Positions 25,465-25,480 of a stretch of 31,686 bases of DNA are shown piece after piece. The DNA lies in IMG/VR virus record IMGVR_UViG_3300030380_003868, positions 1-31,686 of that record. One strand, given 5' to 3'. The DNA comes from a virus. Both the position numbers and the translations under genes were made by a program. The notes beneath the pieces were generated by a model. The model did no database searches and was not told where the DNA came from. It saw only the letters and a list, made by a program, of their open reading frames with translations. Position 1 is the stretch's first letter. Every line of letters begins with the position of its first letter.

Positions 25465-25480
25465 TGTTCCACGTGGAACA
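25465..25480. promoter_or_regulatory. parS: parS-like 16-bp palindrome (ParB site)
   Basis: TGTTCCACGTGGAACA is a perfect 16-bp palindrome and fits the bacterial chromosomal centromere consensus TGTTNCACGTGNAACA at every fixed position. It lies just after a terminator and outside any gene. No ParA or ParB gene is visible in the window. It could recruit host ParB, or mark partition by phage-borne ParAB elsewhere. Confidence 0.75.

Follow-up and report, generated by a model that had tools for sequence, protein, structure and literature searches.

The DNA analyzed here (the window) is a stretch of viral DNA of 31,686 nt from IMG/VR. Its genes encode a family A DNA polymerase (22606..24510, + strand; PF00476, PF01612), which served as the bait for relatives, a primase with an AEP domain, two helicases, a lysozyme, and the terminase small subunit, together with a DUF932-like protein (a match below cut-off), a DUF7227 protein, and virion proteins. 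Positions 7566-10658 encode a repetitive, Ala/Gln-rich protein of 1030 residues, with long shadow open reading frames on the opposite strand. The window record is probably a fragment, because its first open reading frame is cut off by the left end and related records are as long as 44-62 kb; for the right-hand 11.7 kb of the window, the phage collection contains no close DNA match. The nearest named polymerases are those of DSL-LC04 (56%), 023Pt_psg01 (54%), HTVC023P (52%), and HTVC027P (48%), the last two being Pelagibacter phages, and the virus itself is a marine bacterial virus with a probably lytic lifestyle. Related polymerases were also found on six MAG contigs, labeled Verrucomicrobiales, Maricaulis (two), Rhodobacteraceae, Flavobacteriaceae, and Pirellulaceae. 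Host assignment by this route was dropped, as the six labels are too mixed.

At 25465-25480, in a gap between the listed open reading frames (25340-25668), lies TGTTCCACGTGGAACA, a fully palindromic 16-mer that matches the chromosomal-type parS consensus, TGTTNCACGTGNAACA, at 14 of its 14 fixed bases. We annotated it, with no strand assigned, as a parS site and putative host-ParB loading site. The preliminary description of this DNA had called it a perfect parS palindrome located outside coding DNA, and was correct on both counts. The free positions of parS prefer a pyrimidine at position 5 and a purine at position 12, in agreement with the published consensus, and the C and G found there in the window site fit that preference. 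The match is the only exact one to TGTTNCACGTGNAACA in the window record, a search for further copies having found no second, and by arithmetic an exact parS is expected ~1e-4 times in 31.7 kb. When up to three mismatches are allowed, the window contains 3 matches vs 1.7 expected, that is, no enrichment, so the site stands out by virtue of being exact. The GC skew of the window has no clear origin-like switch at the site. In the literature, the chromosomal parS consensus is given as TGTTTCACGTGAAACA in PMC10197239, and the B. subtilis parS appears as TGTTNCACGTGAAACA in a table of PMC7022226.

Relatives were gathered in three sets, which overlap and share records, so that kin are counted in their tallies. 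The polymerase set comprises the best 80 of at least 598 confirmed relatives as whole records, and it is these whole-record counts that are unbiased: an exact parS is present in 10/80 records, a count that rises to 14/80 when one mismatch is tolerated, as against 0/80 for the reversed-pattern control with up to one mismatch allowed. In the DUF932-like set the corresponding figures are 17/78 and 23/78 loci, and in the phrog_28737 set 39/80 and 40/80 loci, the 39/80 not being an unbiased prevalence because that set was built from a gene that itself contains the site (the last residue of one of the six search peptides is the first of the VPRGT motif described below). Permutation of the half-site yielded 149 control palindromes, none of which occurs exactly in any of the three sets, and which at one mismatch reach at most 1 record per set. 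The window and 80 relatives together amount to 1.02 Mb in 81 records and loci, the 10 exact-site relatives entering as whole records and the other 70 as loci; parS matches exactly in 11 of the 81, the window included, and the permuted palindromes in 0. The earlier view that a chance occurrence is very unlikely is thus borne out, both by the ~1e-4 expected and by the permuted palindromes; with these, and a reversed blastn control that returned 0 records, we rejected a chance match.

Nine of the records exceed 40 kb. Five of them carry exact sites (G012 two, G024 one, G051 two, G131 two, and G132 three) and four (G041 and the more distant G133, G136, and G137) have no site even at one mismatch. 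In a selection of 20 records, chosen partly for having sites, 13 contain an exact one. None of the 10 named polymerase relatives that were checked has an exact site; HTVC023P and HTVC027P have a one-mismatch site each, and the other eight, including DSL-LC04 and 023Pt_psg01, lack even that. L011, L020, and seven loci of the DUF932 set share one particular one-mismatch form, TGTTCCATGTGGAACA, which may represent a weaker or decaying site. Site-bearing relative records have only 1-3 sites each. L113, an IMG/VR stretch with a DUF7227 relative, contains five exact sites within ~790 bases (2657-3444).

The preliminary description had placed the window site between a strong terminator and a promoter, and the first half of this arrangement stands. 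A hairpin followed by a T run, resembling an intrinsic terminator, is located at 25434..25455 (+ strand), and the site begins 9 bases after it. A similar hairpin and T run are found in three relatives (L001, L002, and L027), all of which lack the site, and the hairpin is not needed for the parS reading. As for the promoter, the single promoter-consensus match within 25300-25700 is weak, lies on the opposite strand, and is no better than shuffles (mean 0.7). Relatives without the site nonetheless conserve a leader or promoter-like stretch ahead of the next small gene (25526..25664, + strand), and with it a TATGCGATAGTATAA-like stretch before that gene. It follows that the site is not an obligatory operator for the leader, and we rejected the idea that it serves as an operator for the neighboring promoter-like stretch. 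An 11-base inverted repeat, TCCCAAAGTGT / ACACTTTGGGA, is present at 25397-25407 / 25651-25661; its arms, 243 bases apart, flank the segment that contains the terminator, parS, and leader, and similar arms occur in L001, L002, and L027.

Another potential binder of the site is encoded at 24770..25006 (+ strand), downstream of the polymerase gene, in the form of a small ribbon-helix-helix-like protein (a weak RHH_5 match, E 4.5e-4, below the curated cut-off). Homologues of this protein are present in 10/10 exact-site relatives compared, irrespective of the place of the site. A perfect intergenic dyad, with a small and possibly DNA-binding protein encoded a few hundred bases upstream, is what one might look for in an operator for a phage regulator of this kind, but we consider that explanation very unlikely: relatives lacking the site still conserve the adjoining leader, the free positions of the site obey the parS consensus, and exact sites are also found within a coding sequence, as well as in an inovirus, a microvirus, phi29, and other unrelated phages.

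The history of the window's own place is one of turnover. The nearly identical L440 (99.9%) has the site at the homologous place, and L386 keeps it exactly with an identity of 79.7% over 1,179 bp. In L387 (79.2%) the homologous place has a site with one change, and a second, exact site is found ~8 kb further on, beyond the point at which the window ends; in L389, apparently of one kind with L002, that second place holds a one-mismatch site. At the homologous place itself, L001, L002, L027, L384, and L389 have no site, and the first three of these keep the terminator-like hairpin and the downstream leader despite its absence. Conservation of the site in relatives with diverged flanks, which had been put forward as a check on its function, is therefore found in part, in L386 (exact) and L387 (one change), and is not found in the other five, and close relatives without the site at this place indicate that it turns over.

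Across the clade, exact sites occur at several non-homologous places, as expected of a loading site that is independent of position. The interval between the polymerase and the terminase small subunit holds the site in the window, G005, G060, and G075; in G022, G044, G051, and G069, it is downstream of the terminase and, where present, of the DUF932/DUF7227 genes; and in G012, G024, and G007, it is in another module. Altogether, 62 distinct exact-site contexts, drawn from the window, the three relative sets, and additional records, fall into 12 in-register homology clusters, of which the largest have 24, 12, 11, and 5 members and some of the small ones may correspond to one region with rearranged flanks. 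An operator or local silencing would fit poorly with places that vary from one relative to another and can fall within a gene.

In the cluster of G044, G051, and G069, the two halves of the site have changed in concert at the free position: the corresponding palindromes have either CC..GG or TC..GA, within flanks that are 72-80% identical. Such a paired change of half-sites could also be produced by an RNA stem, but CACGTG would then be mostly loop, and yet this center is invariant in the aligned homologous sites (as it is, by definition, in exact sites). An RNA hairpin with a 6-bp stem and a 4-base loop is possible at the window site (-7.3 kcal/mol with flanks, z -2.0); its stem, however, is not followed by a T run, the terminator-like hairpin being the one upstream, and for a T-variant site, 31 of 200 shuffles fold at least as well. 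The RNA hairpin was rejected on these folding results and on the distribution of the sites, and we regard it as extremely improbable that the resemblance to parS is due to chance, to an RNA hairpin, or to the arm of a terminator.

In one of the clusters, the site resides within the phrog_28737 gene (~300 residues), in the part that encodes a variable acidic linker. A codon test was carried out on 48 sequences (L303-L350) of the 80 phrog_28737 loci. The site is present in 32/48 of these, in which it is translated as V-P-R-G-T (V-P-R-E-T in one), and its codons, GTT CCA CGT GGA ACA, are 100% identical in every sequence that has the residue. By comparison, at seven conserved columns upstream that are 4/6-fold degenerate and belong to the same N-terminus, the major codon accounts for only 38-84%, and the probability of spelling VPRGT in this way under the phrog_28737 family's own codon use is 6e-4. 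The sole replacement, G to E in L336, gives TGTTCCACGTGAAACA and falls on a free position of parS. The remaining 16/48 sequences have no site, but a different linker from which VPRGT is absent. A three-way DNA alignment reveals the block to be frozen likewise. Judging from the frozen codons and the 12 in-register clusters, the site family is selected at the level of DNA, independent of its position; at the window's own place the picture of DNA-level selection is mixed, with the site kept in L386 and five relatives without it. Further along the same gene (L303-L350), alignment columns 259-315, which correspond to its last ~55 codons, include many fully conserved synonymous codons. These columns look as if they housed an overlapping gene or a further signal in DNA or RNA, and their frozen codons are not explained by the parS reading.

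The motif is not confined to relatives of the window. A scan of IMG/VR, a collection that may include prophage contigs with host DNA, found parS in at least 120 stretches, compared with 34 in all for the reversed pattern, and 138/145 sites in these stretches have the pyrimidine/purine combination at the free positions. After sites less than 300 bases from a locus end had been omitted (145 reduced to 125; control 34 to 32), 50% of the 125 were located in open reading frames of at least 100 residues, vs 82% of random positions and 75% of the 32 control sites. In blastn searches of annotated phages with a doubled site, we obtained 213 records for the T variant, 61 for the C variant, and 124 for the mixed form, many of them close kin and some of the matches partial; one reversed control, that of the T variant, returned 0 records. 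There is no Escherichia or Salmonella phage among the matches listed (the best or spread 120 of 213, 60 of 61, and 60 of 124), and Klebsiella phages contribute 10 records to the C-variant summary, a count that comes without denominators.

In 15 chosen named phages (14 from the blastn lists, plus phi29), only exact sites were counted, because the reversed control also matches when up to two mismatches are allowed (5 places in 4/15 phages). The inovirus bajarodino virus 6 (PQ006135.1, 5.9 kb) has six exact sites; phi29 and Bacillus phage vB_BcoS-136 have four each; Ruegeria phage DSS3P8, Pseudomonas phage XD2, a Xenohaliotis phage, and Lactobacillus phage Lpa804 have three each; Gordonia phage Woes and B103 have two each; and Kozie, Spiroplasma phage 4, KPP25, Perkons, BUCTxx99, and an abalone-associated phage have one each.

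The earlier remark that no parAB is visible holds for the window record (probably a fragment), in which neither the ParB_N nor the AAA_31 ParA model has a match. Its companion suggestion, that the phage has a ParABS of its own elsewhere, did not fare as well. ParB_N (PF02195) scored above the cut-off in 0/30 clade records, four of which are 44-62 kb, a result that applies to ParB-fold proteins close enough to PF02195, more divergent ones escaping detection; G072 has one sub-threshold match. This search covered the 30 clade records and four named relatives. A ParA-type ATPase (AAA_31, PF13614) was found in 0/17 clade records and an integrase in 0/18. Beyond the clade, ParB_N is present in 2/50 of the at least 120 site-bearing IMG/VR stretches, and in 1/15 of the chosen named phages, namely BUCTxx99; phi29 has no ParB_N match. 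An own partition system is thus not supported, within the limit set by a window record that is probably a fragment. That limit, and the combination of ParB_N domains and motif in BUCTxx99, would speak for a phage-plasmid whose parA/parB lie in the unsequenced part, but with 0/30, 0/17, and 0/18 in the clade, we consider this highly improbable.

The window site is read as a host-ParB loading site because ParB clamps at parS and engages ParA, and because SMC is recruited there. In the account of PMC12704722, ParB that has bound parS closes into a CTP-dependent clamp, moves onto the adjoining DNA by sliding, and engages ParA; PMC10197239 describes recruitment of SMC-ScpAB at bacterial parS sites; and in Pseudomonas aeruginosa one parS is reported to be sufficient for segregation (PMC4368675). 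Recruitment of host ParB, the other suggestion of the preliminary description, is well supported by evolution, in that the sites occupy non-homologous places, have frozen codons and dyad-symmetric changes, and are found in other ParB-less phages, with phi29 as a precedent. Our reading, which we think somewhat more probable than all others, is that the site is a functional parS in cis, through which host ParB would tether the phage genome to the nucleoid or partition it along with the nucleoid. Taken separately, binding of the site by host ParB is highly probable from the sequence comparisons, and there is about an even chance that localization or partition is its main use.

Under such a model, host ParB would recognize the phage parS upon infection, load as a CTP-dependent clamp, and slide along the adjoining phage DNA. 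The ParB-coated phage genome would then be handled like the host origin, presumably tethered to the nucleoid via host ParA, and phage genomes would be shared out at host division; the coated DNA might also be a loading platform for host SMC. Likely benefits would be correct placement within the cell and, should a slow-growing marine host divide before lysis, inheritance by both daughters.

With 1-3 sites per genome, the number of sites does not discriminate partition from condensation, silencing, or titration. It is conceivable, but unlikely, that host ParB mainly loads SMC or condenses replicating phage DNA before packaging, rather than partitioning it. This explanation shares the sequence evidence of the main reading and can draw on the recruitment of SMC-ScpAB at bacterial parS sites described in PMC10197239, as well as on the paired sites, 23-24 bp apart, of some genomes. 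Nothing in the sequences separates SMC loading from partition, and known phages replicate and package without such help. It is quite unlikely that the sites serve to titrate host ParB or draw it to the wrong place, or that ParB spreading from them silences nearby phage genes, so that segregation is disturbed or expression timed. Replication would presumably multiply the sites, and that of the window does lie between a terminator and the leader of the next gene; against this, there are just 1-3 sites per site-bearing record (L113, with 5, apart), and lambda with an engineered parS replicated and lysed cells that had CFP-ParB foci, according to PMC13190303, although the label system used there need not be a chromosomal-type parS.

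Tethering or partitioning by host ParB has one close parallel. To our knowledge, phi29 is the sole known case of a phage that borrows host ParB; Meijer et al. in 2005 reportedly found that host Spo0J/ParB traps phi29 DNA in spores. This work is cited in a passage of PMC9437464 stating that host Spo0J (ParB) mediates entrapment of the phi29 genome in spores (Meijer 2005). Like phi29 (Salasmaviridae), which has four exact parS sites, three of which lie within genes, and for which ParB_N has no match, the window and its clade have exact parS without a detected phage ParB. In contrast, phi29 has a spore-forming host, and its known benefit is spore entrapment, tied to sporulation, whereas the marine clade, a different type of phage with 1-3 sites per site-bearing record, is not known to infect spore formers and has a link to ParB that is predicted from sequence. 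Compared with chromosomal ParABS, the 16-bp parS site is identical, but that of the window is on a virus in which parA/parB were not detected. Phage P1 and the extrachromosomal mycobacterial prophages are phage-plasmids that encode their own partition proteins. They resemble the window phage in that ParB would be loaded at a cis site on phage DNA, and differ from it in that the window clade has no detected partition proteins or integrase. Phages are also described as exploiting host LexA, CtrA, and Spo0A through cis sites (PMC9437464). There, too, a host protein is borrowed via sites in phage DNA, but those sites control transcription, whereas parS would control the placement of DNA.

As for native parS in ParB-less phages, among the open-licence matches listed there were only papers citing the phi29 work. 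Selected parS sites in phages with no detected ParB, some of them on non-spore-forming hosts (Ruegeria, Gordonia, Lactobacillus, and Pseudomonas), point to a more general viral use of chromosome segregation. The chances are evenly balanced that many unrelated ParB-less viruses have independently gained the host parS, with host ParB as a common handle, beyond sporulation, for the placement, partition, or condensation of phage genomes. On that proposal, the users would comprise some inoviruses and microviruses as well as tailed phages whose hosts are marine, actinobacterial, lactic, or pseudomonad, and would include a marine clade with the site written into a gene whose silent positions are under selection. 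Since some carriers have named laboratory hosts (for example, Roseobacter phage DSS3P8, with Ruegeria pomeroyi DSS-3), the proposal is directly testable.

Two further repeats were observed in the neighborhood of the site. Between the polymerase gene and the ribbon-helix-helix-like gene, positions 24587-24697 contain tandem-like repeats with a unit around CACCGGTGTCCGAAACG..AGGACAGGG, and secondary matches are seen in this repeat region in relatives, too. An inverted repeat at 26901-26954 / 27107-27158 is located around and upstream of the start of the terminase small subunit, and has minus-strand blastn matches in relatives.
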